Assembly: GCA_964036045.1 (NCBI GenBank)
Contig: OZ038381.1
Coordinates: 160,212,283 to 160,276,282 of the forward strand
DNA: 64,000 bases
Source: Eutreptiella sp. 'Long Island Sound 2002'
Taxonomy: Eukaryota > Euglenozoa > Euglenophyceae > Eutreptiales > Eutreptiaceae
Direction: 5' to 3'
The notes under the pieces were generated by a model. That model saw nothing but the letters and a program-made list of their open reading frames with translations, made no database searches and had not been told where the DNA came from. A program made the position numbers and the translations under genes. Below, one piece after another: positions 8,040-41,869 of this stretch (positions are counted from its first letter, which is position 1; each line of letters opens with the position of its first letter).

Positions 8040-9410
8040 GTCAACCATGCCTCCTTGCTTTTTGTTTGAACATCCCCATGAGTTGGCATGGCAGATATGA
8101 CAGAAAATTGGTTAGGAAAGAAGAAGCAACAAAACGGCACATCAACAAGTGGCCCCTTTCCTTCCTCACAGTCAAACACGTGGTCATGGAAGCTGCAAAG
8201 CCCGGAGTTAAATATTCGACGGCCAACAGGGAATACCCATCATGTAAAAAAGAGCCCCCATCGTGTAAAAGAAGAGTGATAGACAAGCCGCCCTCTGGGC
8301 AGATGCCACAGGCACCCTCAAACATCCCTTGCAGGTGGCCTGTCGCCGCTGACGCGCGGGCACCGTGATACCCTAGTGGCAACGCAGCTCTACCTGAGAG
8401 TGCTGCACAAGGGCAAACCTATGTTGCCACCGGGGGACCCACCTGCATGAGGGTGGATGCTGTGGGGCTCAACATCTGGCGTCGGGCGTCGGGCATAAGG
8501 AAAACATGATGCCGCCCGTGTATCTCTGACGCCCCCCCCAACCTCTCTGACAATGACCACTCACTCACAAGCAAGCAAGCATGACTGACTGGAGGCCATA
8601 ACTAGAACTGGCCCACCGGACACACAAAAAAAACCCCAGAGCAAAGCAAACCATCAGTAGCATCTTCGAGAGCCGTCCCATCTCGGGCTGGGACAAGCAA
8701 GAACCAACTGTCAACCAACAAAACTGTGACTGTCACTGACAACCAACTGTAAACTAACAAAACTGTGACTGTCACTGCAACTGTCACTGTCTCTGTGACG
8801 TGCAATATACCATACAACATTTTCTGCAAAGGAAGCAAGGAGCAGAATGGGGCAGTATGGTGTGCATTCACACTGCATGCAACAGGCACAAAATTCATTA
8901 TACAGGCATTTTTCCTGCAGAAAAACTGAACACAGACAGTTTTTTCCTGCAACACACTACCCCCCACCCTGGTAGTGGACGGAATCCAAAACAACTTTCC
9001 GCCCCCCCCCCCCCCCGCCTGCACAAAACCCTGTTTACCAGCCGCTACCAGTCAAACAAACCCCTGGGTTCCACTGACCAATAAACCCCAACCGACGAGG
9101 CTAAAACGTCTGCCGTCCGACAAAGCCATACACCCACGAGACAACCATCCATGTGTCACCCCCAACGCTCTTCTGACCCCTTTGTTTGCTGACTACCAAG
9201 ACCTGACAATCCACCCTTAAGGCAGTTGTCTCAGGAGTCCTAGACCCAGGGCTCCTCGACAAAAGAAGTGTATTATGTACTTGTTAGTGAGTAGACCGTA
9301 GTCATACAACCACTACCGATACCCAACCCTTGCCTCAGCCTGCCCTTGGAACAGCATCTTCCTTTCAGTGGAATGGGATCACCACAGAGAGGAAACAACA
9401 GGTAGGAGCA
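8040..9410. other. No assigned exon; expected to hold the 3' end of the GH81 gene
   Basis: The last exon identified for the minus-strand GH81 gene ends with a GT donor at 9415, so at least one further coding exon and the 3' UTR should lie below it. I could not recognise the C-terminal ~50 residues of the family here. The stretch includes a two-copy 39-bp direct repeat (8702-8777, ACCAACTGT...CTGTGACTGTCACTG) and a C run near 9001-9016. Confidence 0.4.
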
Positions 9411-9414
9411 TGAC

Positions 9415-9495
9415 CTGGACCCAATATGGTGGGAACATCAGGTGCACGACTGGTGTAATGGGCAGCAGCTGGATACCATGGACAAAGAAACCGGC
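9415..9495 (-). CDS. GH81 gene exon 19
   Basis: Acceptor CTCCCATCAG, donor CAG|GTCATG, 27 codons, phase 0 to 0. It encodes AGFFVHGIQLLPITPVVHLM, the C-terminal HGI-x-LP-TP motif of GH81. It must splice to at least one more exon downstream. Confidence 0.85.
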
Positions 9496-12400: not shown

Positions 12401-15400
12401 CGGACAGCGGCACAGGGGACACAGGGCACAGGGCAGCGCAGGGCACACAGCCGCACAGACCTGTGTACAGAGCACTGGATTGAGGGCACAAGGCAGCACA
12501 GATGGGTGCATGAGGCACAAAAGGCACGCATCGGGCGATGCACGTCGGCGCATTCGGCACCCACGTGGAACAGGGCACGGGGCACAGGGCTCTGACCTGT
12601 GCACAGAGCACAGAGGGCACAAGCATGTGCACGACGCACGGGGCAGACGGCGCAGGGCATACGGTGGAGGGCAGCACAGGGCAGAGAACACGGGGCCACA
12701 CAGACGGGGGCACAGATCGCAGGGCAGCTCCAATGTGTGGCACTGGCCCATGCAGCACAGCGCAGTGCAGCGATGTCTGCGGAAAGGCGCCCATCGCAGA
12801 AGGTCCGGCAAAATAGCACAAACTTGTGCATGGGAGGCGTCAGAACCAAAAAGGTGTGGATGATCATCGGATGACTGTGTGCAGGGCACAGAGGGCACGG
12901 CTGCACCGACCTGTGCAAGAAGCACACAAGGAGTACAACACCCCGTGGACCGGGCACAGGGCAGACCTGTCCGTACAGATACACACCGTACCACGCATTG
13001 ACCGCTTCACTCGTGGACTCTTGACCTTTGCCGTTGGGATCTGAGTAGATGCCTGAAAGAAGGGAGCACTGTCACCATGCAATGCCTGCGAATACCATGT
13101 GCGCACCGACATGCAGGCACCAGCACCTGCACTCGCACACGCAGCTGCATTTCGTGCACTTGCACTGGCACGCGGACAAGGAAAGGGGGGGGGGGGTATG
13201 GTTTTGTGCCGTGCAACACATGTCTTGTACCACATGACTGCATGCATGTCGTTTGATGTCGTTTTCACCGCTTGTATTATGCCGTCGCTCATTCAAATCA
13301 TGGTCTTACACACATACTGCAGGTTGACACACAGTGTTTGATCTGCTTTTTGTGTTTGTGTGCTTCTTTATGTGCCTCACGTGTCTTCATTTGCTTTTGT
13401 TTAGTGCATTTGGTAGCGTCTTCTTATGCAATCCCCATGCATCTGTTTGCCCACTCATTTGTGCCTAAATCTGTGAACCCCCCTCTGTGGACGTTTTCAT
13501 GTTGTGTTTAGATATGCACATCATATCATTATGATTGCCTGTGTGTGTGCGCGCACGTAAATGGCCAGATTTTGACGGGACCAGCGTCTCTGTGTTGCGT
13601 GGCCTTTTGGGGGCGGTTCGCGGACATATTGTGGAGTTAGGGGGCACTAGAGGGCCCTTTGGCACGGGGAAGTCTAGCTGCACGTGTAGAGTAGCCACTA
13701 TTTCCCTTCATTTGGCCGTTTTCAGCAGGTTCTAGGGTGGTTTTCTGCAAAAAAAAAAAAGGCTGATTTTGGCCCTAAATTGCAGCTTTTGAAATGGAGG
13801 TCCGGCACTTGCAACGCTCGTTCCCGGCCGCCAGCGTTGAGTTTGTGGCTCATACTTTGTGTGGTTGTCCCTCACACCCATAGGTAGCATCCACCAAAAT
13901 TTTGGCTGAATCCGAAGCACCACGACAGAGATGTGATTTTTCATCATTTCGCGCGTGCTTGCTTGCTTGCTACTTGGTGCTTGCTTGCTTGCTGCTTGCT
14001 TGCTTGCCTAACCTGTTAGGTCCACCCTAGACACTAAAGAGGGTTATAAAACCAAAACTGGTTCCACCAGCTGAGTGACTGTGACCCTAGCCTAGGGTGA
14101 GAGCTAGAGCTAGGGATAGGGCTAGGGTTCGGGTTAGGGTTACAGTCACCGAGCTGGTGGAACCAGTCTTGGTTTTATAACCTCTTTATCCCCACCCCCC
14201 CCCGTATCTGTTATATAGACCATGCGTGGTGGGGCACGCAAGCAACACAATTGGCCCCCGAAAGCTCCAGAATTTGCGCACATTGGCTGCCAACAGCCCC
14301 AAACCAAAAACAGACCATATCTTGGGCTATGTGGCTCAAAACGCGATTTCGAGCGCACCTGATCCACCCGCAACCACCCACTTCTGGTGGTTTCCACCCC
14401 TCAAAATTGCCCAAACCGACACCTAGACCCCCGTACCTACGCCCATTGGATTGCGGCAAGCTGCAAGAGGTAGCCCAAAGAGGTGGGTGCCCAAATGCGT
14501 CAACAAGGTCCACCGGGTGCAAAAAAAGGACTTTTGTCAAAAATGAGGCTGGACCACATAGAATGCCCAAACAAGTGTTTTTGGCGCGTTGTGAGCTCTT
14601 GGTGGCCTATTTTGGCCCCTCCAAAGTCACAAAATGCCTTGAAAAGGGGCTGTTTTGGGACAAAAAATGGGTCCAAAATGGGTCAAAAATGGGTTTTTCC
14701 AAAAATGATCCTAGACCATTTGGGGTGCACAAACAAGTGAAATGAGCCCGATTTGAGCCCATTGCAAGCCATTTTGGCCCCTCCAAAGTCACAAAATGAC
14801 TTGAAAAGGGGCTGTTTTGGGACATAAAATGGGTCCAAAATGGGTCAAAAATGGGTTTTTCCAAAAATGATCCTAAAACATTTGGGGTGCACAAACAAGT
14901 GAAATGAGCCCGATTTGAGCCCATTGCAAGCCATTTTGGCCCCTCCTAAAATCCCAAAATGCCTTGAAAATGGGCTGCTTTGGGACCAAAAATGGGTCAA
15001 AAATGGGTCAAAAATGTGTTTTTCCAAAAATGATCCCAGACCGTGAAATGAGCCCGATTTGAGCCCATTGCAAGCCAGTTTGGCCACTCCATGGTCACAA
15101 AATGCCTTGAAAATGGGCTGTTTCGGGACCAAAAATCAATCAAAAATGGATCAAAAATGTGTTGGTCCAAAGATGCTTTTGAACTATTTGGGGTGCACAA
15201 ACAAGTGGAATGAGCCCATTTTGAGCCCATGTTGAGCAATTTTGGCCCCTCTCAAGGCCGAGAGGGCCTTAAAAATGGGCCAATTTGGGTCCACAAATGG
15301 CTCAAAAACGGGTCAAAACCATGGTTTTCCAAAAATGATCAGAGTCCAGTTGTGGTGCCCAAACGGATGAATACGGCTCATTTTGAGCCCCTTTTGAGCC

Positions 15401-18400
15401 GCTCTCATCCACTTTCCAGTGCTTACCTCAGTTGTCGTTGAAGTCTCTTAGACGATGTTCCTTCCCCCACCAGCTCGGTCCCAATATTCAACCCTGGTTA
15501 GTGTTGGGGCCCAAATTGGAGAGCAATGATGTGGCAAAAGCAGCCATGAACGGAGTTTGGGGGATCTTGTTCAGCCAAATCAACATGGCTGGCATGGCTG
15601 AATAAAGTTTAGGGGATGGCAAGGGGAGGTAAGGCGAGCCTGTGCCCCCCTCCCAAAAAATGGGGCCAACAGCTAGTTGGCGTCCGGAACCGAGGAGTCC
15701 CTACTAGGTTTGGGAAGCAAGCAAGCAGCAAGCAAGCAGCAAGCAAGCAAGCACGCGCGAAATGATGAAAAATCACATCTCTGTCGTGGTGCTTCGGATT
15801 TGGCCAAATTTCTGGTGGATGCTACCTATGGGTGTGAGGAACCGCACAAAGTATGAGCCATAAACTCAACGCCGGCGGCCGGGAACGAGCGTTGCAAGTG
15901 CCGGACCTCCATTTCAAAAGCTGCAATTTAGGGCCAAAATCAGCCTTTTTTTTTGCAGAAAACCACCCTAGAACCTGCTGAAAATGGCCAAATGAAGGGA
16001 AATAGTGGCTACTCTACACGTGCAGCTAGACTTCCTCGTGCCAAAGGGCCCTCTAGTGCCACCTAACTCCACAATATGTCCGCGAACCGCCCCCAAAAGG
16101 CACCCAAAAGCCCCGGATTTTGTGCACATTGGCCGCCAACAGCCCCAAACCAAAAAAAGACCATTCCTTGGGCTACGTGGCTCAAAACGCAATTTCGAGC
16201 GCACCTAATCCACCCGCAACCACACTTTTGGTGGTTTCCACCCCTCAAAATTGCCCAAACCGACACCTAGACCCCCGTACCTACGCCCATTGGATTGCGG
16301 CAAGCTGCAAGAGGTAGCCCAAAGAGGTGGGTGCCCAAATGCGTCAACAAGGTCCACCGGGTGCAAAAAAAGGACTTTTTCCAAAAATGAGGCTGGACCA
16401 CATAGAATGCCCAAACAAGTGATTTTGGCGCGTTGTGAGCTCGTGGCGGCCCGTTTTGGCCCTCCTAAAATCCCAAAATGCCTTGGAAAAAAAATGGGTC
16501 CAAAATGGGTCAAAAATGGGTTTTTCCAAAAATGATCCTAGACCATTTGGGGTGCACAAACAAGTGAAATGAGCCCGATTTGAGCCCATTGCAAGCCAGT
16601 TTGGCCACTCCATGGTCACAAAATGCCTTGAAAATGGGCTGTTTCGGGACCAAAAATCAATCAAAAATGGATCAAAAATGTGTTGGTCCAAAGATGCTTT
16701 TGAACTATTTGGGGTGCACAAACAAGTGGAATGAGCCCATTTTGAGCCCATGTTGAGCAATTTTGGCCCCTCTCAAGGCCGAGAGGGCCTTAAAAATGGG
16801 CCAATTTGGGTCCACAAATGGCTCAAAAACGGGTCAAAACCATGGTTTTCCAAAAATGATCCTAGTCCAGTTGTGGTGCCCAAACGGATGAATACGGCTC
16901 ATTTTGAGCCCCTTTTGAGCCGCTCTCATCCACTTTCCAATGTGTACCTCAGTTGTCGTTGAAGTCTCCTTGACGATGTTCCTTCCCCCACCAGCTCGGT
17001 CCCAATATCCAATCCTGGTTAGGGTTAGATGTAGGGTCAGGAGTAGGCTGAGGGTTGGAGTGGGCGTTAGAGTCAAGGTTGGGTTTAAGGATAGTATTGG
17101 GGTGCAAAGTAGACAAATTTTTCCCAACGGCACCTTTGGTGTTCATGGTGCGTGGGGCGCCTTTGGCACCCATGGACGCCCGAGGGCGACACCTTTGGCA
17201 ACTAACTGTTGGCTGGAGGCCCCCTAGGGGGGGGTGGGGGGGAGGGGGGTAGTTGGCGTGCTAGGACCCGCGGAGTCGCCCCCCGGATGGTGCAATATTC
17301 TGAAAACCACGGGGCAAAAAAGATACAAATGCCATCATGGCCAAATAAGCTTCGCTGACAATAACCTGAACATCATGAACTCAATATTGAGGCATCACAC
17401 AGCACGCACAACACAAACTTGCACCAATTAAAAACGCACACTTCCAAAATCGGAGGGCAAAAATTTACGGAACTAACACCTGGTGTTGCTTGCACATAGG
17501 CACTGCACGGACGAAGGGGGGGCGGACGTGTGGAATGGCACCAACAACACACAAGCATAGCAAAGCGATGTTTGGAACAACAAGCCATGGAAACAAACAA
17601 GGGGCATGTGAAGTGGCGTCAAACAATTCGTGTGCATGGCCCTAAAATGCATTTGTAGAAGCAAAAGCTCAGGTGGCAGTGGGCAATGAGCACTTAAAAT
17701 GGCATTGCGACCCTTTGCAGCGTTGGTGGCCTCACACTGGCCCATGATCTCGCCGTACCACATGCTGTCGACAGCTACTGAGTGGCACCCCTCAAACGCT
17801 CGTGCGATGGTGAGTTCCAGCTGCCCCCACTTGGTGCTGACATTGATGTCAACGGTGAAAGCAAATATTGTGACCGGCACATGAGGACACCGTTTGGCCT
17901 GGACTGACATGATGAGGCCACAAACAAGCGAGTCAAGGAGGGGGAGGCAGGGACTGTGACCGCAGTCGATACTCCCTTTCCATTCATGATGGCGATGGCA
18001 TAATCAGGGAAAATACGAGCTATGGTCCTGCTTTCGGATGCACAGTGTGTGCACAGCACGTACTGTGCGACCTCACCAATACTCGCCAAAGAAGAACAAT
18101 AGCACAGGAAGTGGGAAAAATGGGCCGCCCAACGACTCAGCAACACTCACCAACGAAAAGGGAGGGGAGAGTACCAACTGCTGCCCACTCAGAAGGGGGA
18201 GTTTAGGCGCCTGGGAACGGGAGGGCAACACAGGCGGAAAAGCATGACATTCAAGCTGCATCACACCATGGGCACTGGCATACCGCATTGAACAGCAAAG
18301 CACCATCTCTGGGACGGCATGACACACCTAATGCCCATGAATGACCAACGAAGAAATCAAAATATCGGAAGGTCGTGAAGTAACGATCGTCAGGACTGTG

Positions 18401-30400: not shown

Positions 30401-33400
30401 GTGCTGCCTATGTTCATGTCCCAATGTTCATGTCACTCAGTTGCAAGGGGGGGGGGGGGTGGTAGAAAAAAATTCCTGGTACCGGCGTACAGCTTTTTTT
30501 TTTTTCGGGGAGTACCCCCGGAGGAGGGGAGGGCGGGGTTACGAAAAAAAATTCGCGCAAAATTTTTTTCCGGACCCCAAAACCTGAAATTTCCTCAACT
30601 CTACCCACGTCTTTGGGTTTGGAAGGTGCAAAGAGGATAATTTTTAAGGTAACCATTGATCTTTCAGCCGATATGGGTGGTATTTGTGTTTTAGGGCACA
30701 AAGACCCCCGGTCTGTTCCGGCTGCAGTGCAGCGCCCACCCTGGCCTTGATCCCTAATCGGCAGGCCCAAAAGTGGGGGGGAATGCTACATAACCCTTGC
30801 ATTCTTGGGGGCCCCCAACAAAGGGGACAAAATCAAAGCTCAAAAAAGCAACAAAAACCAAAAATAAAAAATTTCCATTGTCTCCCACATCCTGCGTGTA
30901 AGCACGTAGATTGCCTGCCCCGGGAACTGAACCAGAGACCTGTCCGGCAGAGACCTGTCCGGCAGTGGCACTGTTTACCCGCTAGGGTACAGGCCATCTC
31001 TGACAGAAGTCTGCACAGCGATGGTATTGATATTTGGTCCGATATGGTTTTCATCCATTATTGAGTTTTCCTGAAAAAAATGAGTATTTTGAGTATAGAC
31101 ACATGGGGTGAAAACCCATTTTTTCACCCTCTGCAAGATGAAGCAAATTTTCCTTATGGCGCACAATGTAGCAAAGTGAAGGTTACATGCAAATCCTCCG
31201 TGCGAAAAAAATTCCTAAAGCGGGTGCTAGTTTTTTTTGGGGGGTATCCCCGGAGGGGGGGGGGGGGTACGAAAAAAAAATTCGCGCGAAATTTTTTCTG
31301 CCCCCCTCTCAGTTGGAGTCCTCCTCCTCATTCTCTGCATCATCCTCCTCAGCAGAAGTGAGGGACGAGCCCGAAGCTCACAACTCCACACCCATCATCG
31401 TCAGGGGCGACGGTCTCTAGATGTGCCTTCCCTTGCCAAAGGAGGTGGGTGATAGCAAATTGTCAATCATGCTGCCTTCCCACAAGCTCAACTGATGCTT
31501 GTGGGAGACTTGTGTTTGCAGCCCGCAGTGACTAAATGAAAAAATAGTGCATTCATAAAATAGTGCGCGCAAAACCGTGCACACCGCACATAGCACCGCG
31601 TGTTCATCTCTCTCAATGCCCTCCTCCTGCCCATCCCAACTTCTCCCAGCCCCATCTGCATTCCCAGCCCCAATCCCAGTCCACACAGGCCTAGCCCCGA
31701 ATACCAGGCCTCGGTCCCAGCCCCAGCCCCAGCCCCAGCCCAGCCCCACTCCCTCATCTTGGACTGGTACTCATCACTGTTGCGTGTGTGCAACACATCA
31801 GGTGATACGTCATCCCCCTCCCACAAGAGTAATCTACATGGTCAATGGAGTCCCATTATACTTTACAAGTGGTGGCGAGTACTGCTGTGTGGGCGGATGA
31901 CATGACAGTGAGCAGCACTCAGCGATCAAATGGGAGCACGCAACAACACATTGCTGACGACCATAGCATCTCAACATCAACAGTCGACGTGCGCAACTGG
32001 CCTTTCTTGGTGAGTGCAGATACTCCACCGAGTGCATTGTGTAGGGCCCCCAGCAGGACCATGCATTGACAGGGTTCTATCTCGCTATCTCTTTCTCCCT
32101 CTCTCTCTCCCCACCCCCTTCCCTCCCCCTCTGTGTGCCGCGATTCCAGTAAGGGGGGATCCGTAGCCGTCCAGAAAGGCCATCAAAATGACTGAGAGTG
32201 CTTCGGGTCACGCCATGACTCGTGATAAATGCACTGCCATCCCATCCCAGTCCCAGCCCCCGTCTCCAGGCCCGGTGCAGGCCCAGCCCTGGTCCAGTCC
32301 CAGCCAAGTTTTACTGCCGATGTCGGCGCACCCAGAAAGTGGATCACGTCCCCCACCCGAACCCATCCAATCCATTCCCATTCCGAATCCGAGCCCCTCC
32401 CCAGCCAGCCTGCATCACTCTTCAAATATCGTCTCTTCAGTAGAGACCATATTCAATGCCCAAGATCAAACGCAGCGGCCCTGCGTTGCCCCATGCCCCA
32501 GCACAGGACCACCCACACCACACCGTCGTCTTTGGTGGGATATACGCGGCCCAGTGCTCATCGCTGTCTCGCAGCACTGCACTGAACTTGTGGCCTGTGT
32601 ACTCAGCGCCGTCCGCCGGGGGGTCAGAGATCTCACTGTCGTCCAAGTAAAATGTGCGAATACCTGTGAAACAATCGAGTGAGGTCATGGAATGCATCAT
32701 GGTGGACATGTGAAGGCCAGACACAATCCTGCAACATGCTTAGGGCTTGGTGTCGGCAATCAGAAAGCAACGGCGGTCGTTAGAAGATAACTGACTGAAT
32801 TTTGGCGTCTTCAGTTCGTGTTTGCACATGGGTCTGGTGGAGGGTGGCGAAACGATGTGGGCTGGTGGTCAGCAGCTGAGTGGCTGCCGATTGGCTTTTG
32901 ACAGTTGATGAGGAACACGGTAAAGCATTGAAGACAGCTGGACCATACTTCTGCAGCAGAGCAACAGAAACATTTCGTGTCGAAACAAATTTGGTGCAGT
33001 ACTGATCGGGTAGTTATTAGAACATGGAGGCGCGTGCAGTGATGCGAGCCCAAGCATTGAGAATGAAGAAAGATGGATGCCTGGTTTGCTGCAATTACCC
33101 CATGCCTCGATGCCATCTCCACTAGTCTGCCCGAACTAGGGATTCAGGGAAGTGCTCTAGCTGCTGGTTTCCGTGGCAGCTCTGGTTCCAGCTCTGGCTC
33201 CCAAAGAGCCACCTGGTACTGCCCCCAATCGTGACACCCCATACATGTCACATACTGCCATGGATTCTGGTTGTGCAGCATCCATGATCCAATGCCCAGA
33301 AGCAGAGCACCATAAACAAAGAACCTTGCACAATGCACACGTTAAGCAAATGCACCTTGGGTTGTGCCAACAGCCGCAGCCGGAGCTTTATGGTATTTCA

Positions 33401-34037
33401 CAGTCACGAAGGGTGACCTGAAAGGAACGACAGCGGCGCGGTGGGATGAAGTCCGAAACATCCATTCATCCAACTTGAGGGTTTAGGGCTCAATTCGGCA
33501 GGACATGGGTGGTATGCAAGTCAAAAAGGTGACGATACCCTGAAAAGTATGTCTTTGATCATGTGCATGCGATGGACAATTCGGTGCAAGAAACTCAGGA
33601 TCAGTTTTGCAAAAAACGCTTTCGGGGCTCATATTTGACCCCCTTGTTGGTCTATTGTTGCCAGTTTCAGAGTGTTGATGGCACAGGGAGTTCCTACAAT
33701 CTGTTTTTGACTCTCCGTGTACTTTCTGCCCCAAAATGGGGGAGCTAGGCCTCAAGGAGGGTGGAGGGTCCAACACTCTCGCTCCCTGTGTTTAGAGGCT
33801 TTTGGAAAGCAATGCGTCAGAAAAAGATCAAAATGGCTCACAAACATCCATTTCTGCATCCCGAGGGGTCTTGCTTAGGTCACCATGGGAAAGCCACGTT
33901 TTTTTCCACCCAGCTGCTTTTGCTCCCAAAGTAGTCCACTTTCAGGGCTCTACGGGACCTTTGGCCAGGCCAAAAATGGGTCAACACATGATGAAATTCC
34001 TAGTATCCATATTGTCCTCCATGGGGAGCTGCGCGAG

Positions 34038-34080
<43 letters not shown>

Positions 34081-37000
34081 GAATTGCATAATGCAGGCAA
34101 CTTGCTAAAATGGTGAAGCAATGACAAGCCAGACAAGCCTTAAGAGGCAGTTAGTCTAGTGTGCATTGGGTGGGAAACTGAGATACCCACGAACCAGGGT
34201 AGACTCCATGTGATCACCCCAGACAAATGTGGCCGTGAGCTCATCAGCACGTTTGACACAATTCTTCGTGTTCTTGCCACCAGGCTCCATGTACCAGTGG
34301 CGATTGATGATATTCTGTAAAACAGGGGTAGAAAAAATGGGGCATGTGGCAGGGATCCGAGAGCAGCAGGGAGGCGAGCAACGAAAAAGGTATGACGAGT
34401 GCCAAATGCCACGGGATCCCAACCTCAGTAGGTCTATACATTACCATTTCCAGTATCCTGGGCCTAGTATGCCCAGAGGGAGGGGGGCTGGGGGTCAGCT
34501 GCGGGCCTAGAGAAGCCAGTGAGGGGAGGGCTAGGTTTGGGGGGGGAGGGGGGATTGATGAGAGCAAAAAACTGGCGCTGTGATCACAGCGTTGAAAACA
34601 CTTATTACAACCCCTTTTTTTTCACCACTTTCACCCCTATTGCACACGTTGAAACTTCGAAAACCCCCAATTCGAAGCACTAAACTTGGATATCTGACCG
34701 AAATTTCTGTCTGCAAACCTCTGAGTTCATAAACCAAACGTCGTGAGGAACATGCAACAATAGGCAAGGGGTGGCTCTCCCCTTTATGAATCACTGTCCA
34801 CATTACCTGATGACATTTTTGGAGCGGAAGGAAAACAAGAAAGTGTCTTGCACATTGAAAGTTGCCCACACCAGGAATTGAATTTGGTCAGCATGGACTC
34901 AGGACCTGCTTGCAGTAGCATTGGGCGTGTAGTAATACCCACGTGCAGTGAGCCACCTGCAGTCAGCCACATTTGCACCAGCATCTACCTGCTCCAGGCC
35001 ACCTTCAGCCATCTGCAGCCCCCCCCCCCCCCCCCCCCCCCCCCGGCAACTAGACCAACAGTTCAGCTAGTGGCAGTGCATGTCACCGTTGCGCTCACGA
35101 GAGCATCAGCCCACCACTCCATCCGGCGTCTTGCTACTGACTGCGCATGCTCACAAGCCCTAGTTAGCCTCCCCTAGGTTGTTGCACCAATTGAGTTCAT
35201 ATCAGATGCAGTCCATGTGACCTCAAGGCAGCATCCTGCACCTGTTCTGACAGTGCAATCCAGCAGGTACCAGCCTAAGGGTTTTCATACTGGTTCCATG
35301 TCACCAGATGGGGTGGGCGGGGGTGAGGGCCTTGGGTTGACTGAGCCGTGGATCCCCTGGCCACATGCCTTTTCCCAGTGCCAGCATATCAATACAACAC
35401 AACACAACACAACACAACACAACACAACACAACACAACATGATCCACCACAACACAACACAACACAACACAACACAACACAACACAACACAACACAACAC
35501 AACACAACACAACACAACACAACACAACACAACACAGCACAACACAACACAATACAACACAACACAACGCAACACAACGCAACGCAACGCAACGCAACGC
35601 AACGCAACGCAACACAACACAACACAACACAACATGATCCACCACAACACAACACAACACAACACAACACAACACAACACAACACAACACAACACAACAC
35701 AACACAACACAACGCAACGCAACACAACACAACACAACACAACACAACACAACACAACACAACACAACACAACGCAACGCAATGGGGGAACATTTGCCCG
35801 GCGCGCTACCTTTGTATTAAGTATCTTATCTCTAGCCCTAGGTTTATCCTCACCTTGGGAAGTCCCCCAAGTAGACCGCACTAGACCGCAAACCTTCCCT
35901 GCAAGGCACCTTGCATAAGCCGACATATGAGAATTCAACAACATAAAATGTCACTCCCACCACTTCCAACCACCACCCTTGGGGCGGAACTGCACAGCGC
36001 GCGCACGGCACGGCTATTGCAGGGGGAAATTGGGGGTTTTCATTACTACTGCTCATATTTTTGTCTTTATATACCATTCTAGAGCACCACAATGGTGCAC
36101 AATGTGATGTTTCACCCCAACCCCCCCTGCCCAAGCCACCCAAGGCCCCACATTGCATCCTCAACGGCACCTTACAACAGAATGAGAAGCACATGCACAA
36201 TGAACACATCTGAAGTGAAATTATTCGAAATACGCAGTTTTTCTTAATGTCTGAACGTAAGAAACAGTACAATATCACTACGGCTCATCATGTGGCAAGT
36301 CACACGAGTGATCAGCCATGCATTTATTGCACAAAAACGGATGGCATTGGCAGCACTCTGAAGTCTCCTTGCGTGCACACAATTGGCATAAATACGCATC
36401 ATCCGAGTCAGGCTCCAAAGGAGGGGCTTCCCTTGTCGCGCCAAATGGAAGAAGGGAAATGCTCCCAAGGTCCGTAGGGTTGATACACCTTCTACCGACG
36501 GAGCTGAAATTGGGTAAAGTGCAAAAGAATGCATGTATTGGCATGTAGGTCACGGAACCCATCCAAATGTCTCGAATGACCTTCCAATGCCATAGACGGG
36601 CAAAGAGGTGCTCAACACGAGCACGATAATAACCATGCACATTAGTATACTCTCTTTCACGTTTGGTGAGAACCTTGCGGCTGATGAAGGGAGTATGCGA
36701 ATGCATGCGGCCTTTATATGCCCCATCATGATTCCCCACCTCAAAATCCTTGAATAGACCCAACTTCCTTGATGGACCATATTTGTCCCACATTATAACA
36801 TCCGGTGCCGTGCCGGGCATGAGTGGACCTATACAAACAATATTCCCCAAGTGGTCAACCGCTTCCATATATGGCCGGCACACTTCGGATAAACAAGACA
36901 TCCGACAATGCACCACCTATCGAGCTAATGGGCATAGAGTCCGTGAAATGGGTCACAAGGTAGGGGAAATGAGGGCTGTGATTATAAGGGTTGAGGCAGT

Positions 37001-40000
37001 CGGACCATCGAACCTCGTCCACGACCATGTTGAGGTATTCGCGAACTTTTTTGACGGTTTCCTCAACCACACACAAACCACACACAAATGCAACAAAAAT
37101 GAGGGCTAGGCACGCAAGGAACTCATATAAATGCACAACAAGGCTAATTGTCATTGGTACTAAACAGTGCTATGTAGGTTGGGTACGTTCTTGTACAAAC
37201 TTTGTGCACAGCGTGCAACACAACACAACACAACACAACACAACATAACACAACACAACGCAACGCAACGCAACGCAACGCAACGCAACACAACACAGCA
37301 CAACACAGCACAGCACAAAACACCGATCCGAAGCGTAACAAAACAGCATGACAAAACACAACACAGGATTTGAAGGAGGGCCCATCGATGCTCAGCACGA
37401 AAAATTGCACTGGATCAAGTGAAAAAGCCATCATTCCATGGAACAACATCACTTAGGAAATTCTGCAATGCGGCCTTCCACATCTCATTCACAGTACATG
37501 ACAACTTGAGTCTCCCGTAACTAGACCCTCAATAAACGCTGATGTATTCAGAAATATGAATCATCCACCTGTGCCAAAACGCTCCTGATTGTGTTGTTGA
37601 CTGTGAAGGAAGGGTGTTTGTGTCTGGGCTATTGTACTTTCCTTCCTCCAAATTTCGTGCTGGTACTCCAAACAGAAAGATTTTTCGTACCTCCGAAATT
37701 TCACGAAAAATCCGGTTCCTGTCTGTTGACAACCAAATTCGGCTTGGAACTACAGTAAGGAGGTAATGCAGCCGTCAGGCATGCGGCCTGCAGGTTCAGA
37801 CCTGGACTACGTGGCCTTGAGGCATGAGCCATGGATATGAAATCTCCAATCCACCTTGTTCCACAGCCAAGACATACGGGAGCTCTGTGAGGTAGTTCTT
37901 GCCTCGAGCGTTGGGCCCCAGTGTCCCTGGTACCCACCAGTGATTTGTGGCCAACGGCTTGCGGCCGTCCTCAAAGCACAGCTTCTCATACAATGGTATA
38001 GCAGATGCGATACCCCTGTGTGAACAGCCAGAGGCAGAGGCGATAGGGAACAAGCAGGGTTCTTCAAATGCATCAGCGCAACATGCTGCATCATATGCAT
38101 AGAGAGGCCAAAACCGCTTATGAGCAAACAGCCCTGCAGGGCACCATCTCTGCATCCAGCTCGCATCTGGCGATTCCTGACTGGACCTGTTGAAACCTGA
38201 ATGGACCTGTTTGTCTGCCGAAGGCCAATCACACGTGCGGGAGCAGCCCTGCAAGGGGAAACCGCTCAAATGATCTCAGCATGGCAACCCAGAAGGACCT
38301 GATAGGACCTGATTGGATACACCCGAACCAAAGAGAAACACAGAGGAGAGCCTATTGGGGATGGAAAGTACAGAGTCTAGTGCTGAATGCATGCGCATAG
38401 TAACTGGGGGGGGGGGGGGGTCGGTCTTGCAGACTGAGCCCCATTTACCAGGATGCCCTGTTGCTGGTGCAACATAATTAAGAGCGAACCGAAGCTTGTG
38501 GGCACATGTTGTTCACAAGATGAGAATCAAGAAAACCCGAGGCATACTGCTTTGCCTCGAAGTGGTGCTTGGAATCTTGCCTGAGCTGCAGTTGCACGTA
38601 CAGCCCGATTGGGTTCGAAAGGGCTCCACGGTCCAGAAACACCAGTCTTCACCTTCGAGGGACGGGTCCCTCAGCACTCTGCAAAACATCCTTCTCGGCC
38701 GACCAGTGGCCCTGTTTTTGTCGTAAGATGCAGTTTTGAAAGCATTTTGAGCCTGCATAACAGGACCCAATGGTGTTCACCGTCACAACAGATGGTTCCT
38801 CTTTGCAAAGCAATGCTTGGCTGGTTTGCCGCCAGCTTTTTCCAGGCGTAGCCATGATGAACTGAAAAAGTTCCACTGGAAAAACTGACAGTCATCAGTC
38901 AAGTGGAATGCTTGCCCATCATCTTAACAGCAGGTTCAAATCTTTGGCATCTACCAGGAATTGACACGGACATTCAGACGTGAAAATTTCTTTCTCCACA
39001 CGGGAATCAGTTATTTTTGTGACTGGATCGAAAATTCCCTTCAAATCAACAACGTCAGAAGGGCACTTTTTCCACCGCCCCCAAAGACCAGACCCTACAA
39101 TGCAGTCTCCACCACTACCGGAGGGGGGGGGAAATGGTGTGGGCATATTTTGGTCAGGCAAAATTGGGTGAGGGGAAAATTTGGTACAAAATGTTAAATA
39201 CCATGGGAAAATGTGGTACAAATTTTCCAAACAGTGGAACATCTGGGAATTGAACCGGGGACTTCCATTTTCAAAGTGTAGTACTTCTACAACTCAACTC
39301 TACAACTTAGCTAACTGCTTTCCTGGGTGGTTGTAGTAATTTCCTGGTGCATTTTGGATGGTTGCTGTTATTTTCTGGTGTACTCTGGATGGCTGCTGTT
39401 ATTTCTGGGTGTACTCTGGATGGTTGCTGTTATTTCCTGGTGGACCCTGGATGGTTGCTGTCATTTCCTGGTCCTCCCATAACCTGCCCATGATCGTGGT
39501 CCCCAACAGAGCATGAAGTCCGACAATTCAGACATTTGGAACCTTGTAATGGAGAGGAAATGCGCATAGATTTGGTAAAGGCAAGAACGTGGCTTCAGTC
39601 CTGAAATACCACGGCAAAATGTGGTACAATTTTGCTGTGCCACATTTCGCCGTTCCAAATTTCGCACCTGCCAAATTTCCCCCCCTCCAGTACAAAATGG
39701 ATAGTAACCGACAAAGAGCAAGGCCCCGAACATTTGAAGCCCGAGACAGCCAAGACTGTAAAAAACCCCGAGAGGCGCTTTGCCGTCCCCACAGAAGGGA
39801 GTTTGGCAACAAAGAATCAGGAACCTCTGAAAGTTATGAGTTCTTGACTGCGGGTCAGAAGAACAATCGGTTCGCCATATCCGCTCTTTGTGGAGGATTC
39901 GAAGGATTCATGATATGGAACGCCTTCCTCCCTTCCTCCCTTCCTCAATCCTCATCGAGCACAACGAACACTGGAGGCTGCTGCACAGCACTGCTAATGG

Positions 40001-41845
40001 CCCGCGTGACGCTCAAGGTCCTCTGCAGGGGGGCATACCCATGGCGGTCCACATGCCGGTAGCCCTCCTTCGCAGGGTCTCGGTTCGAAATAGTGTCGAA
40101 ATGGTCAGGAACTGATGTGGGCCGCTGTGCACGCGGCGGCCTGTTGTGCGGCCGCACCGGAGGTGTAGGCTTCGGGGATTGTCCCGCAGTCTTGTCCCAA
40201 ACGCAGGTCATGGTCCCAGGGATTTTGCTCTTTGTGCTGACAGCCTGAGAGCATCAGTCCACGGGGCAAAAGTCGTTACATGCCACTGGGGGGCCCAGAC
40301 CCAACCTGCTCCTTATGGATGAGTCTCAAGGGGTCAATCCACGAAAACCTACCCGCAGAATGCTGTCAGCACAAACCTCATCCGTGGCGGAGCACCCTCA
40401 CACACTCTGCGTGTGCTTCATGCCCTGAAGGGCGAGAAGGAAAAAGCAACTCTCGATGATAGATACAGCGGCATTCATGTTTCCTGTGGGGCTTGGGCCT
40501 TGTGCAAAATGCATTGTGGGTGTTACTAGGTGTGTTGGAACACCGCAGATGTACCAGACTTAGGGGAAGTTCTTGCACTGCGTGCACACTGCATGGGCAC
40601 TGCGTGGGCACTGCGTGCATACTGCACACGCAGAGGCTGGGATACTCACCCAAGTAATACGGTTGGTGGTGACCGTCTTATTTCCTTGGAATCCATTTCA
40701 GAAAAATGAACAATCCAAAAATATGTGACTATTTATGGAAGCATTTTTCCTTTATATGAAACCAAGGGCACAGGATCAATGTTCTGCCACCAAAAGGTAG
40801 CTAGGGTGCGAGTATTTGCCGACATCCAAAACTTCGCACTGCGTGCATGGCATTCCCTTACCACCAGCATCCCCCGGATTGCACATGGTCAGGAGAGAGG
40901 GCTCCAGCCTTTTGAGCTCACTGGAGGCAGCAGCCCCAGGGGTGCAAAGCACGGTTCCGAACCTGAGGGTGTTTTTTTTTTGGCATCCTGGAGCCCCACA
41001 CGTCTCGTGTGCACACATGACTCCTGGTCAGGATAAACAACTCATCCTCACAGGATGTGTGTGTTTCAGGCTGAAAAGTCTGATGAGAATCCACCTAGTC
41101 TGTTCTCTCATGGGATGAGAAATCAGTATTCATTGGGTGGTTTGCTGGAACATGAGCAACATCTTCAACCTGATCAAGCTTCAAACCACCAGGGAATAGG
41201 GCACGCAACAGAGCTGTCTGCAAATCTTTATCGGAAGCGTTCTCCCAAGCATCCCTACCTGCCTGAATATTCGTCCTGCATGCATCAATTGTAATCTAAC
41301 ATGCATCAAAATTCGTCCTACATGCTCAGTTTATGTCCTACAGCCACTACAACTCATCCCCTCACAATGAAAAACAATTCTGTCAAGTAGTGCAAGAAAA
41401 GCGCTGTTTGACCCGGGGGTAGTTGCTGTGCAAGGCGCTCATTCCGAAACGCAGCCTGTGCTGAAGAACAAAATCAGCAGAAAGGAACTAAAGAGACAGG
41501 ACTATCAAGAATTCACAAGGACACGTGCTGAACCTGCTTGCCAGAAATAGCAGCAAACCTGAGAATCCAGGGCTACAAAGAAGTGCTTACAGAACAATAG
41601 AAATGATGCAGAAATCACACCTTTGATCCCATCAGGCGGCACAGCTTACCGAAGGTTGCATCGGGTTGCACAACTGCATATTTGCAGCCCCCAGTCGTCA
41701 CACATAGCCCACAACACTGCGTTTCATCGTTGACTGGAAATGATGTCAAATTGTGGCCTTCATATGTGACCCCCTGCTGGCAAACGCATTTTCCTTGCCC
41801 ATGGACCAAAGTCACAAATAGAAGGAAAAGCCAAAGCAACCACAT
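9415..41845 (-). CDS. Secreted PAN-GH81 endo-1,3-beta-glucanase, 19+ exon gene
   Basis: This is a family GH81 endo-beta-1,3-glucanase (laminarinase), which hydrolyses internal beta-1,3 links of glucans such as laminarin, chrysolaminarin or callose by an inverting mechanism. Nineteen minus-strand exons join with GT-AG borders and consistent phases to about 780 residues. Exon 1 gives a signal peptide (MWLLWLFLLFVTLVHG). Exons 1-2 give a cysteine-rich PAN/Apple-like module and a proline-rich linker. Exons 3-9 give the GH81 N-terminal beta-sandwich (KPLATNHWW, LPYVLA, STLVRGSPFVTV, GFSGYVRLA, MIALPHH). Exons 10-18 give the catalytic helical domain (DPYNAGKMLAKLGRL, IYDSTWGGV, DFGNAYYNDHHFHYGYF, YFDFFVGHSWALG, GKGQESTSEAVNAWYG). 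Exon 19 gives FVHGIQLLPITP. The Asp before GHSWA and the Glu residues of QESTSE, implicated in catalysis in this family, are intact, and no stop or frameshift was found. The C-terminal exon(s) were not located. The start at 41845 (not 41866) puts the Met directly before the hydrophobic core. Confidence 0.9.
10160..10840 (-). repeat. Diverged relative of the ACCGAG element
   Basis: This intronic stretch shares ordered blocks with copies A and B: CGGTCCGAAAACGCCG, GGCCGCCACCATTCAGGTTT, GTATCATCCACCAAAATTT (10701-10719), CCCCACTTCGCGCTGCTG and GGGGATATTAAACC in place of GGGTTATAAAACC. Between blocks it is strongly diverged, so it looks like an old or separate subfamily member. Its outer ends are unclear. 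Confidence 0.6.
11154..11222 (-). CDS. GH81 gene exon 18
   Basis: Acceptor CGTGTTCAG, donor GCG|GTATGC, 23 codons, phase 0 to 0. It encodes GYNHLMVGILHDLIIEFQTY followed by FGA, matching the family segment NKMVGV...TWFG just before the HGI motif. Confidence 0.85.
12045..12155 (-). CDS. GH81 gene exon 17
   Basis: Acceptor GTCCTCAG, donor AAG|GTCTTT, 37 codons, phase 0 to 0. It encodes ATKQSLVSTIGETLLLMEVH and then STNYYWHVPQNIEIYPK, matching the late helical segment LLAMEI..A..YW...IYP of GH81. Confidence 0.9.
12190..12960. repeat. Degenerate GGGCACAG-type minisatellite inside the GH81 gene
   Basis: About 750 bases rich in variants of GGGCACAGGGCA and CACAGAGCACAGAGGGCAC on the plus strand. 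It fills the intron between exons 17 and 16. The long cysteine-rich frames read from its minus strand are products of the repeat, not genes. Confidence 0.7.
12967..13052 (-). CDS. GH81 gene exon 16 (catalytic Glu exon)
   Basis: Acceptor TTCTTTCAG, donor CAG|GTCTGC, 86 bp, entering with two bases that complete the Gly split from exon 15 and ending in phase 0. It encodes IYSDPNGKGQESTSEAVNAW and YGVYLYGQ. QESTSEAVNA is the family signature carrying the glutamates implicated in catalysis. Confidence 0.93.
13565..14086 (-). repeat. ACCGAG element, partial copy C
   Basis: A truncated copy of about 520 bp in the inverted orientation. It keeps the unit 5' half: GTCCCTCACACCCATAGG, the GCTTGCTT microsatellite (13966-14008) and GGGTTATAAAACCAAAACTGG, ending in CCACCAGCTGAGTGACTG. 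It faces copy D head to head across a telomere-like spacer. Confidence 0.85.
14087..14146. repeat. Degenerate telomere-like CTAGGG/TTAGGG repeats
   Basis: The spacer between two head-to-head ACCGAG elements is made of variants of CTAGGG, GCTAGGGATAGGGCTAGGG and GGGTTAGGGTTACAG. Similar short AGGGT/CCCTA runs sit at element ends at 4040-4065, 5195-5215, 17018-17090 and 44935-44962. Confidence 0.7.
14147..15495 (+). repeat. ACCGAG element, copy D
   Basis: Plus-oriented copy starting CACCGAGCTGGTGGAACCAG and ending CCACCAGCTCGGTCCCAATA. About 400 bp of the unit 5' body is missing after 14190. It contains extra ~163-bp internal repeats (CCAAAAATGATCC at about 14699, 14862, 15026 and 15329). Confidence 0.85.
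15505..15615. repeat. Element-flanking sequence, inverted partner at 44.83-44.93 kb
   Basis: This ~100-bp segment (GGAGAGCAATGATGTGGCAA, AAAGCAGCCATGAACG, GATCTTGTTCAGCC) matches the reverse complement of 44830-44930 (GGAGAGAAATGATGTCACCA, AAAGCAGCCATGAACG). Both copies directly adjoin an ACCGAG element end. Confidence 0.75.
15695..17017 (+). repeat. ACCGAG element, copy E (5' terminus missing)
   Basis: Plus-oriented copy that begins inside the unit at CTACTAGGTTTGGGAAGCAAG, so it lacks the CACCGAGCTGGTGG terminus. It ends normally at CCACCAGCTCGGTCCCAATA. Its 3' 450 bp is almost identical to copy D, showing recent homogenisation or duplication. Copies C, D and E all lie in the 5.3-kb intron between GH81 exons 15 and 16. 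Confidence 0.85.
18328..18395 (-). CDS. GH81 gene exon 15 (catalytic Asp exon)
   Basis: Acceptor CTGTGCACAG, donor TTAG|GTGTGTC, 68 bp, entering with one base and leaving in phase 1. It encodes PDDRYFTTFRYFDFFVGHSW followed by AL; the FD..GHSWA.G motif carries the Asp implicated as the general acid. It joins IANPS from exon 14 to the GIYSDPNGKG start of exon 16. Confidence 0.92.
18656..19850. mobile_element. Large foldback element with palindromic termini
   Basis: Two arms of about 545-590 bp (18656-19240 and 19303-19850) are imperfect reverse complements around a ~60-bp centre. The left arm reads GGAAACCCATGTTTGTGGGC, and the right arm repeats it inverted at 19790-19812. A perfect 22-bp palindrome, CACTGTCAGAA plus its reverse complement, lies at 18656-18677 and 19219-19240, with a near copy at 19303-19324 and a decayed one at 19833-19850. 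There is no coding capacity. It is a MITE/foldback-like element in the intron between GH81 exons 14 and 15. Confidence 0.85.
20156..20448. mobile_element. Second foldback element, same 22-bp terminal palindrome
   Basis: About 293 bp. Both ends are the palindrome CACTGTCAGAA plus its reverse complement (20159-20180, 20424-20445), followed inward by CCTTTGCCTTT and TACGCTTCATGGAAGGGTGA on the left and the inverted counterpart on the right. The arms are about 130 bp and strongly matched, the loop is about 30 bp near 20284-20312, and no ORF is present. Shared termini tie it to the 18.66-19.85 kb foldback although the arm sequences differ. Confidence 0.88.
20704..21150. repeat. Inverted-repeat pair ending in CAGGGATGGATCTAA
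   Basis: CAGGGATGGATCTAACGGGG at about 20708 is repeated inverted near 21126-21140 (TTAGATCCATCCCTG). Each is followed inward by G/C runs and a TGTGAC/GTCACA segment. This may be a further nonautonomous element. The centre holds a CACTGTCACTGTCACTGTC microsatellite (about 20932-20978). Confidence 0.6.
21366..21724. mobile_element. hAT-type MITE with perfect TIRs and 8-bp target duplication
   Basis: The 359-bp element has perfectly matched 15-bp terminal inverted repeats, CAGGGCGGTCCTTAA and its complement, and is flanked by the identical 8-bp direct repeat ATAACAAC at 21358-21365 and 21725-21732. A TIR beginning CAGGG plus an 8-bp target duplication is typical of the hAT superfamily. GGGCGGTCYTTAA is repeated subterminally near 21665 and 21679, also a hAT habit. 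The interior (about 21440-21655) is a GGCGGTTGGT-type minisatellite. It has no coding capacity and lies in the intron after GH81 exon 14. Confidence 0.93.
21784..21888 (-). CDS. GH81 gene exon 14
   Basis: Acceptor GTGGTGCAG, donor CCCAG|GTCTGC, 105 bp, entering with one base and leaving in phase 2. It encodes YFIYTAAVVARYDPAWAKKY and then NEKVLMLVRDIANP, a highly typical GH81 stretch directly following NDHHFHYG of exon 13. Confidence 0.93.
21890..23642. other. Intron 13 of the GH81 gene
   Basis: About 1.75 kb between exons 14 and 13. Several open frames on both strands are short and without motifs. No mobile element was recognised. Confidence 0.6.
23643..23697 (-). CDS. GH81 gene exon 13
   Basis: Acceptor ACTCGCAG, donor TACGG|GTATGG, 55 bp, phase 1 in and phase 2 out. 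It encodes PNFDFGNAYYNDHHFHY, the GH81 signature DFGN.YYNDHHFHYGY. A longer version starting at an acceptor near 23803 is also phase-compatible, with a different exon 12 donor. The short one gives the better family match. Confidence 0.85.
24663..24754 (-). CDS. GH81 gene exon 12
   Basis: Acceptor GCTACTGCAG, donor GGAT|GTCGGT, 92 bp, phase 2 in and phase 1 out. It encodes TRVRLSRWLDHTTKNLLIYD and STWGGVISCG, matching the YD..WGG.v motif of the catalytic domain. Confidence 0.9.
25818..25981 (-). CDS. GH81 gene exon 11
   Basis: Acceptor GCGCATCTTAG, donor AACAG|GTCCAC, 164 bp, phase 0 in and phase 2 out. It encodes a Met/Asp-rich start (SDMHYDMRYDMKDGMIDPYN) and AGKMLAKLGRLTLIADQL, the first helices of the GH81 catalytic barrel. 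Confidence 0.9.
26923..27024 (-). CDS. GH81 gene exon 10
   Basis: Acceptor CAAACCACAG, donor AAG|GTCTGT, 34 codons in phase 0. It encodes TAGHKWELVYPEYDIDWVGE and PDKDKIPTILKFLK, the W-x-L-x-Y...i-x-W segment that links the two GH81 domains. Confidence 0.88.
28570..28755 (-). CDS. GH81 gene exon 9
   Basis: Acceptor CACTTTGCAG, donor CAG|GTTTAT, 62 codons in phase 0. It encodes VPQGTRTTYHYKDVRCWDSL then PDGYLTMIALPHHLAV; LTMIALPHH matches the conserved LxMLALPHH motif of GH81. Long G and C runs fill the neighbouring introns (for example 28784-28808). Confidence 0.9.
29189..29245 (-). CDS. GH81 gene exon 8
   Basis: A 19-codon exon, phase 0 to 0, donor GCG|GTAAGT (the best consensus donor in the gene) and a weaker acceptor GAAGATTAG. 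It encodes TCMGDGGERKCLCGSFPAA, where GSFPAA fits the family's G.YP... position. The acceptor choice is the least certain in the model: an alternative at 29253 would break phase. Confidence 0.7.
29330..29518 (-). CDS. GH81 gene exon 7
   Basis: Acceptor CATCCTTTTGCAG, donor AAG|GTGTGC, 63 codons in phase 0. It begins GFSGYVRLALLNNC, the conserved F-S-G-x-x-R-x-A motif, and continues through a Cys/Asp-rich loop to VCTEGSVITIDK. Confidence 0.9.
30465..30575. repeat. Direct repeat, left copy (partner at 31.20 kb)
   Basis: About 105 bp: GAAAAAAATTCCT, a T run, CCCCCGGAGG, a G-rich stretch, then TACGAAAAAAAATTCGCGC and AAATTTTTTTCC. The same order recurs in direct orientation at 31203-31303, about 735 bp away. 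Confidence 0.8.
30770..30842. repeat. Single copy of the 7.6-8.0 kb tandem unit
   Basis: GAATGCTACATAACCCTTGC, ATTCTTGGGGGCCCCC, then AAAGGGGACAAAATCAAA, matches the unit of the array beside the MULE pseudogene (ATGCTACGTCACCCCTGC, ATTCTCGGGG, GGGGAACAAAATC). It lies between the paired direct repeats at 30.47 and 31.20 kb. Confidence 0.75.
30922..30984 (-). repeat. tRNA-like Pol III promoter remnant (possible SINE)
   Basis: Minus strand: box-A-like TAGCGGGTAAACAG (30984-30971) and box-B-like GGTTCAGTTCCC (30933-30922). Between them GAGACCTGTCCGGCA (plus-strand reading) is tandemly duplicated, which lengthens the spacing. Not an intact tRNA. Confidence 0.4.
31203..31303. repeat. Direct repeat, right copy
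   Basis: Second copy of the 30465-30575 repeat. Its distal end contains the palindrome TTCGCGCGAA within A- and T-runs, giving a strong hairpin potential. Confidence 0.8.
31620..31750. repeat. CCCCAGC-rich simple repeat
   Basis: Variants of CCCAGCCCCAGCCCCAGC on the plus strand. A similar tract lies at about 32240-32420. Both are intronic, and the proline-rich or glycine-rich frames across them are artefacts of the repeat. Confidence 0.7.
32524..32663 (-). CDS. GH81 gene exon 6
   Basis: Acceptor GATTGTTTCACAG, donor ACG|GTGTGG, 140 bp, entering with two bases and ending in phase 0. It encodes IRTFYLDDSEISDPPADGAE and YTGHKFSAVLRDSDEHWAAY. K-F-x-x-x-L-x-D...W matches the family's substrate-domain strand pair. 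Confidence 0.9.
33356..33417 (-). CDS. GH81 gene exon 5
   Basis: Acceptor GTTCCTTTCAG, donor CAAG|GTGCAT, 62 bp (one base, 20 codons, one base). It encodes SPFVTVKYHKAPAAAVGTTQ, completing the VRGSP(Y/F)VT motif begun in exon 4. A decoy frame at about 33490-33534 reads GIVTFLTC but does not fit the phases. Confidence 0.9.
34041..34077. repeat. (CA)n microsatellite
   Basis: A GCGC-led run of about 16 CA dinucleotides in intron 4 of the GH81 gene. Confidence 0.9.
34187..34314 (-). CDS. GH81 gene exon 4
   Basis: Acceptor CCCTGTTTTACAG, donor CGTGG|GTATCT, 128 bp, phase 0 in and 2 out. It encodes NIINRHWYMEPGGKNTKNCV and ends WGDHMESTLVR, the W.D.....LVRG segment of GH81. Confidence 0.9.
35019..35044. 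repeat. 26-base C homopolymer
   Basis: The longest uninterrupted C run in the window, in intron 3 of the GH81 gene. Confidence 0.9.
35390..35780. repeat. (AACAC)n pentanucleotide satellite, 390 bp
   Basis: About 75 copies of AACAC with blocks of the AACGC variant (35568-35610, 35712-35720, 35770-35780). An interruption CATGATCCACCAC occurs twice, at 35438 and 35633, exactly 195 bp apart, so a 195-bp block was duplicated. The minus strand reads as repeating Cys-Val-Val-Leu frames, which are not genes. Confidence 0.95.
36278..37154 (-). pseudogene. PIF/Harbinger transposase pseudogene with Cys-rich tail
   Basis: Minus strand. The first frame (37154-36870) has VREYLNMVVDEVRWSDCLNP and HFTDSMPIS, where the Asp fits the first catalytic residue. 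The frame then shifts near 36870-36900 into MEAVDHLGNIVCIGPLMPGT, APDVIMWDKYGPS (second Asp region), VGNHDGAYKG (third Asp) and LTKREREYTNVHGYYRARVE, HLFARLWHWKVIRD. This is the DDE_Tnp_4 (HARBI1-like) endonuclease pattern. The protein ends with a cysteine/histidine cluster CQLCARKETSECCQCHPFLC, NKCMADHSC that should bind zinc and is not part of the core family. The frameshift and missing N-terminus make it a relic. It sits in intron 3 of the GH81 gene, in the same orientation. Confidence 0.82.
37214..37316. repeat. Second (AACAC)n/(AACGC)n satellite
   Basis: About 20 pentanucleotides of the same type as at 35.4 kb, including an AACGC block (37256-37285) and AGCAC variants. The two loci flank the Harbinger pseudogene. 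Confidence 0.93.
37802..38015 (-). CDS. GH81 gene exon 3
   Basis: Acceptor GTTCACACAG, donor CCAG|GTCTGA, 214 bp, entering with one base and ending in phase 0. It encodes GIASAIPLYEKLCFEDGRKP, LATNHWWVPGTLG, ELPYVLAVEQGGLEISYPW. The P-L-x-T-N-x-W/F...LPY......ISYP pattern marks the start of the GH81 domain. Confidence 0.92.
38407..38420. repeat. G homopolymer
   Basis: A 14-base G run in intron 2. Otherwise 38.02-39.23 kb shows only intron sequence with no motif-bearing frame. Confidence 0.8.
39244..39314 (-). repeat. tRNA-like Pol III promoter remnant (possible SINE)
   Basis: Minus strand: box-A-like TTAGCTAAGTTGTAGAGTTG (from 39314) and box-B-like GGTTCAATTCCCAG (39257-39244) at tRNA-like spacing. 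The stems do not pair well enough for a functional tRNA. Confidence 0.45.
39325..39480. repeat. 31-bp minisatellite, five copies
   Basis: Unit close to TGGATGGTTGCTGTTATTTC then CTGGTGTACTC, repeated five times with a few substitutions, immediately beside the tRNA-like piece in intron 2. Confidence 0.88.
40039..40244 (-). CDS. GH81 gene exon 2 (end of PAN-like module and linker)
   Basis: Acceptor TGCTCTCAG, donor CATGG|GTATGC, 206 bp, phase 0 in and 2 out. It begins AVSTKSKIPGTMTCVWDKTA, closing the cysteine-rich module, then has a proline-rich linker (SPKPTPPVRPHNRPPRAQRP) and HFDTISNRDPAKEGYRHVDR leading into the GH81 domain. Confidence 0.8.
41621..41845 (-). CDS. GH81 gene exon 1 (signal peptide and PAN/Apple-like module)
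   Basis: From Met at 41845 (a further in-frame Met lies at 41866) to donor AAG|GTGTGA, 75 codons, phase 0 out. The first 18 residues are a typical secretory signal (MWLLWLFLLFVTLVHGQG). Next comes KCVCQQGVTYEGHNLTSF, then CCGLCVTTGGCKYAVV and KLCRLMGSK, with cysteine spacing of PAN/Apple modules that bind carbohydrate or protein. Linkage to the GH81 exons rests on strand, position and matching phase across a 1.4-kb intron. No promoter element was recognised upstream. Confidence 0.75.
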
Positions 41846-41869
41846 CCTGTAAGCGACAACCAACAAATG

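Follow-up and report, generated by a model that had tools for sequence, protein, structure and literature searches.

The window analysed here, a 64,000-nucleotide stretch of DNA, carries on its minus strand a predicted GH81 beta-1,3-glucanase gene that reads from 41845 to 9415. The gene spans 32431 bp, with 2238 bp exonic and 93.1% intron, in agreement with a first-pass annotation that had placed a minus-strand GH81 gene of about 93% intron over 32 kb. That annotation had counted at least 19 exons, whereas the present model has 18, 17 of them well supported and one (E2) uncertain. At 62-225 bp each, the exons share the upper bound of the 55-225 bp range given earlier, but the shortest has 62 bp and not 55. 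The introns average about 1.8 kb (median 1063 bp), and the largest, at 5275 bp, corresponds to the 5.3 kb first noted. As had also been claimed, splice sites and phases are correct: all 17 introns have GT-AG borders and the joined exons form a single open frame of 746 codons with 0 stops. The exons, in order of transcription, are:

41621..41845, minus strand: E1, start codon, signal-peptide-like stretch and Cys-rich PAN-like segment; 75 codons
38187..38248, minus strand: E2 (uncertain), 62 bp; best phase-compatible candidate, 17.7 versus 15.3 for the next
37802..38015, minus strand: E3, KPLATNHWWVPG; GH81 N-domain begins; profile 12.1 bits
34187..34314, minus strand: E4, DELTATFVWGDHMESTLVRG; borders assigned in the model
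33356..33417, minus strand: E5, SPFVTVKY; top of its gap by splice/phase/codon score
32524..32663, minus strand: E6, YTGHKFSAVLRDSDEHWAAYIPP; found by eye
29330..29518, minus strand: E7, GFSGYVRLALLNN
28570..28755, minus strand: E8, DGYLTMIALPHH
26923..27024, minus strand: E9, TAGHKWELVYPEYDIDWVG
25818..25981, minus strand: E10, DPYNAGKMLAKLGRLTLIADQL; GH81 C-domain begins; profile 27.3 bits
24659..24754, minus strand: E11, NLLIYDSTWGGVIS; top of its gap; profile 16.2 bits
23643..23792, minus strand: E12, YYNDHHFHYG plus about 30 extra residues; profile 28.8 bits
21784..21888, minus strand: E13, YFIYTAAVVARYDPAW; profile 41.0 bits
18328..18395, minus strand: E14, FDFFVGHSWALG, including FDFFVGHSWA; profile 27.1 bits
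12967..13052, minus strand: E15, GQESTSEAVNAWYG; profile 28.9 bits
12045..12155, minus strand: E16, LLLMEVHSTNYYWHVP; profile 15.4 bits
11154..11222, minus strand: E17, HLMVGILHDLIIEFQTYFGA; profile 4.1 bits
9415..9495, minus strand: E18, FFVHGIQLLPITP; last exon found, GT donor at its end, no stop; profile 12.9 bits

Open stretches with 30 or more codons on the minus strand were inspected by eye over about 9-43.5 kb, and the GH81-like pieces lay in the order that a minus-strand gene demands. The majority of the exons were initially picked in this way, with borders set for fourteen; E6 was also found by eye. The initial 572-residue draft hit Glyco_hydro81C in Pfam with an E-value of 1.1e-53, but Glyco_hydro_81 only with 0.1. 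To keep phase, the model needed one exon in the E4-E6 gap and another, ending in phase 2, in the E1-E3 gap. E10 and E12 could be joined directly in phase, yet their junction lacked the GH81 motif YD..WGG. A gap search that combined splice-site matrices, codon use and phase placed the SPFVTVKY stretch at the top of the E4-E6 gap (12.2 versus 7.4) and the NLLIYDSTWGGVIS stretch at the top of the E10-E12 gap (18.9 versus 11.8). Both E5 (SPFVT) and E11 (YDSTWGG) had been overlooked by eye, and both carry motifs that GH81 proteins have at those places. The lead of E2 in the E1-E3 gap is narrow, so this exon is kept as uncertain and weighs against the interpretation preferred below. Directly before the start codon, a good acceptor at 41846-41868 (tttgttggttgtcgcttacag/g) could end an intron of the 5' UTR or serve for the addition of a spliced leader.

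The spliced model matched PF17652 (Glyco_hydro81C; 9.4e-75, 252.5 bits, cut-off 25.6), up to profile position 291 of 349, and PF03639 (Glyco_hydro_81, N-terminal; 3.6e-11, 43.3 bits, cut-off 25.6), splicing having improved both matches over the draft values. The best solved chain was PDB 4k35 (9.8e-37). Both domains are shared with known GH81 proteins (PDB 4k35/4k3a, 5xbz, 6fop and BH0236 5t49/5upi), as are the NDHHFHYGYF and QES.SEA blocks and FD..GHSWA. The reported retention of FD..GHSWA and GQESTSEAVNAWYG was thus borne out, by FDFFVGHSWA in E14 and by E15, respectively. In a four-sequence alignment D567 and E646 are invariant and E642 is found in three of four (Ala in 6fop); we take Asp567 to be the likely acid and a Glu of ESTSEA (642 or 646) the likely base. 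A hydrophobic, signal-peptide-like start in E1, recognised by eye, together with the two Pfam domains agrees with the initial description of a spliced, secreted-type glucanase. Unlike known GH81 proteins, the model has a Cys-rich E1 segment that resembles PAN_4 (PF14295) below the cut-off (17.8 versus 27 bits), which we count against the preferred interpretation. The same applies to about 30 residues in E12 (23680-23790, minus; YIWIDMKEWPEPHGYPICANDETKLECPT and its neighbours), which stand before NDHHFHYG, are absent from the 20 relatives shown and represent either an insertion particular to this lineage or an exon border that was set wrongly.

As most exons were first selected by eye, the chain might be a chance pick of GH81-like peptides. 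A control profile was built with the model left out. It drew on 85 GH81 proteins of bacteria and viruses, 80 of them from the best of 580 confirmed genome stretches and 5 from among 177 viral ones; its column range was taken from the model, and the loci of the 85 relatives had been located with an alignment that included the model. Among 2590 stop-to-stop segments with 12 or more residues (1280 minus, 1310 plus), the top ten matches, scoring from 41.0 down to 4.1 bits, all lie on the minus strand and all hold modelled exons (E3 and E10-E18), with profile positions rising as coordinates fall, in GH81 order; the best plus-strand match scored 2.8 bits. A chance pick is thereby already refuted for these ten exons. 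For the chain as a whole it is scarcely credible, given also that two exons topped the splice and phase ranking before their motif fit was known and that the N-domain E-value fell from 0.1 to 3.6e-11 upon splicing. E4-E9, which cover the variable N-terminal domain, were not singled out segment-wise by the control profile, a further point against the preferred interpretation; their support comes from the Pfam N-domain match, the phases and the splice sites.

Conservation was assessed against the same 85 relatives (best 80 of 580 plus 5 viral), and the model keeps 37/38 of the columns conserved at 97%, 61/67 at 90% and 78/102 at 80%, where leave-one-out analysis of 23 relatives gave 0.88-1.0, 0.80-1.0 and 0.69-1.0, respectively. 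A check for frame disruptions likewise found the GH81 frame open throughout its 746 codons, with both Pfam GH81 domains above cut-off. Over its readable part the catalytic domain thus seems undamaged, and to this extent the earlier view of an apparently intact enzyme gene stands, although the last ~60 residues were not found in the window. A quick 36-row tree combined the model with 32 of the 85 relatives and parts of 3 PDB chains, no algal GH81 among them. The model has a long end branch (1.71) and, within its 18-row set, where the fungal chain also falls, groups with none of the sub-groups; a recent transfer from bacteria was considered but is not favoured by this sampling. The C-domain had no match in phage records.

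Repeats and a transposase match occur in the introns and flanks of the gene, with three features inside introns:

36281..36916, minus strand: DDE_Tnp_4 transposase match in an open stretch, E3-E4 intron; PF13359 1e-06, 28.9 bits, cut-off 24.8
18651..20505, no strand assigned: nested fold-back repeats, E13-E14 intron; they share the palindromic core GTCAGAATTCTGAC, which occurs five times in 1.9 kb
13602..16930, no strand assigned: two inverted copies of a dispersed repeat family, E14-E15 intron; the family also forms the 45-64 kb array

Ten open stretches were tested against Pfam and the DDE_Tnp_4 stretch alone matched; it is the one protein-coding element type verified above cut-off. The fold-back nest, whose CACTG...CAGTG ends presumably recall CACTA-type ends, and the dispersed copies of the neighbouring repeat family lend further substance to the claim of mobile elements in the introns. 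The four types first reported were not reached, as the MULE-like piece (7290-7787, minus) is a sub-threshold transposase match (15.6 bits, cut-off 27.6) located below 9.4 kb. The E3-E4 intron also holds (CAACA)n arrays at 35390-35782 (about 79 units) and 37216-37322 (about 21 units). An introner origin was rejected on one test: when the two terminal 45-nt stretches of each of the 17 introns were compared, no inverted repeat exceeded 7 bp.

Upstream, a tandem array begins about 3 kb from the gene and reaches the window edge (about 45000-63940), with a ~1.61-kb unit in 11 near-identical copies starting at 45770-61885 (TRF). Neighbouring copies are 99.6-99.8% identical in five in-register comparisons, and an identical plus-strand open stretch of 163 codons, which has no Pfam match, recurs in each. 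Pieces of one repeat family are dispersed over 4200-6320 (below the gene), 13600-17000 and 45000-63940, and the satellite array looks like an amplified dispersed element. Two host-repeat patterns had zero exact matches in viral contigs, and no RNA genes were found in the window at Rfam gathering scores or by ARAGORN.

Relatives such as L006 and L012 extend 61-64 residues past E18, and the first-pass annotation had looked to C-terminal exon(s) below 9.4 kb. The expected C-terminal block, W.GF..MAHA..DP..A...DDGNS.TNTLYW, was sought on the minus strand of 1-9414 by pattern scan, profile and ungapped scans and was not found. The ungapped scans covered five overlapping blocks, and their positive-control block, which crossed the E16-E17 border, also found nothing. 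One candidate for block D, YPQGSSSVRGLRWVVSRR at minus 3163, ranked first of 75646 windows (4.7 versus -0.6 for the next) and also tops block C. It stays a doubtful candidate and was not accepted, being weakened by the fact that the region makes up about 7% of the space searched and that five blocks were tried; it also overlaps, in a different frame, an open stretch of 369 codons (2304-3410, minus) that itself has no Pfam match. With the largest intron elsewhere at 5.3 kb, the lack of both a stop codon and the C-terminal block in the 9.4 kb below E18 counts against the preferred interpretation, and the gene either runs past the window edge or has lost its end. The second case would imply a recently dead GH81 gene, which lost its C-terminal exon, or had it shifted away, through insertions below 9.4 kb while the rest has not yet decayed. 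Such a history would fit the undetectable block and the repeats and MULE-like piece present below 9.4 kb, but it is unlikely in the face of 746 codons without a stop or frame break, 17 intact GT-AG introns and 37 of 38 near-invariant columns kept, and the window simply ends.

We consider it very probable, from the sequence features described, that this is a nuclear gene of an intron-rich protist that encodes a secreted-type GH81 endo-beta-1,3-glucanase. The gene itself is real and probably functional. The spliceosome would remove at least 17 introns, in which mobile elements may have accumulated while the exons were spared, and the C-terminal ~60 residues would be encoded on a further exon, probably past the window edge. 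The predicted enzyme would enter the secretory path and cut beta-1,3-glucan (laminarin, chrysolaminarin or wall glucan) by the inverting mechanism of its family; the GH81 enzyme of B. halodurans is described as an inverting (alpha/alpha)6 enzyme (PMC8949617).

The first-pass annotation had called the intron load striking, an assessment that comparison with other protists does not support. PMC10666404 gives averages of 24,462 bp per gene, 2798 bp of CDS and 4709 bp per intron for P. cordatum, and 26,201 bp, 1193 bp and 3732 bp for A. gibbosum; like the present gene, genes of these dinoflagellates extend over tens of kb, are over 85% intron and hold mobile elements in their introns. As published averages have the same gene shape, mobile elements included, the intron load is ordinary for large protist genomes. 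In kelp, mean gene and intron lengths are 9587 and 1057 bp and GH81 is among the families discussed (PMC4421812), and PMC7965971 also reports GH81 from stramenopiles, haptophytes and Cercozoa.

A dinoflagellate host, where such genes are common (means of 24-26 kb in the two species above), would account for this architecture, but the splice sites make it rather improbable. GT donors account for 24.7% in P. cordatum and 74.9% in A. gibbosum, and AGG acceptors for 79.7% and 93.2% (PMC10666404), whereas the GH81 gene, a single gene, has GT at 17/17 donors, without the large GC and GA share of a typical photosynthetic dinoflagellate gene, and AGG at 13/17 acceptors. Unlike the introns of those two species, its 17 introns lack end-to-end inverted repeats longer than 7 bp. 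No dinoflagellate spliced leader was found in the window within 3 mismatches, a weak argument because a stretch of 64 kb need not contain one. In Amoebophrya AT5 99.98% of introns are GT-AG, but the mean intron length in Amoebophrya is only about 340 bp (PMC11453091).

The donors follow a pattern of their own. At 18 donors, position -1 is G in 18/18, +3 is C or G in 14/18 and A in just 3/18, +4 is T in 14/18 and +5 is G in 11/18. GTNTG occurs at 11/18, whereas 10.5% of the remaining GT sites within the introns read so (binomial 2.6e-7), and GTRAG at 0/18 (background 2.1%); these figures describe one gene, in which a matrix trained on the model's other donors served to rank those of E2, E5 and E11 and the remainder were picked by eye. 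Three diplonemids have the 5' splice site (G)/GTATG, according to PMC12621601. Comparison with D. papillatum, L. lanifica, D. japonicum and R. humris (PMC12621601 and PMC10161547) showed shared GT-AG borders, donor +4 T and +5 G, pyrimidine tracts that prefer C in most of the species, long introns with transposable elements, tandem arrays next to genes and predicted laminarin digestion. D. papillatum, which is predicted to digest laminarin, has a 72-kb intron and a 186-kb gene with transposable elements inside introns (PMC10161547). Three points speak against kinship. Unlike the GH81 donors, diplonemid donors have A at +3 (PMC12621601). Diplonemid intron medians are 41-107 nt in four canonical species, where long introns were perhaps missed, and D. 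papillatum has a median below 1 kb and introns in only 41% of its genes. The 17 introns found here would also come close to the highest number given for a D. papillatum gene, 20 (PMC12621601 and PMC10161547).

The diplonemid resemblance is thus a lead and not a placement. Tentatively, the host may be a protist with a large genome that has not been sampled before, is possibly related to diplonemids and uses G/GTNTG donors instead of GTRAG; we hold this to be possible but doubtful. If true, it would mean an altered pairing of U1 with the 5' splice site in a lineage with a PAN-like/GH81 enzyme for algal glucan digestion, and the donor-site pattern is the one lead here that might tell something new about the host.

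Both the GH81 family and the intron-rich gene shape are already known, and this gene is a further member. With exons of 62-225 bp it would, as first proposed, escape ORF-based annotation: ORF calling on eukaryotic contigs would leave such an enzyme invisible, and because it is blind to genes of this kind, the ability of protists with large genomes to degrade glucan may be underestimated.
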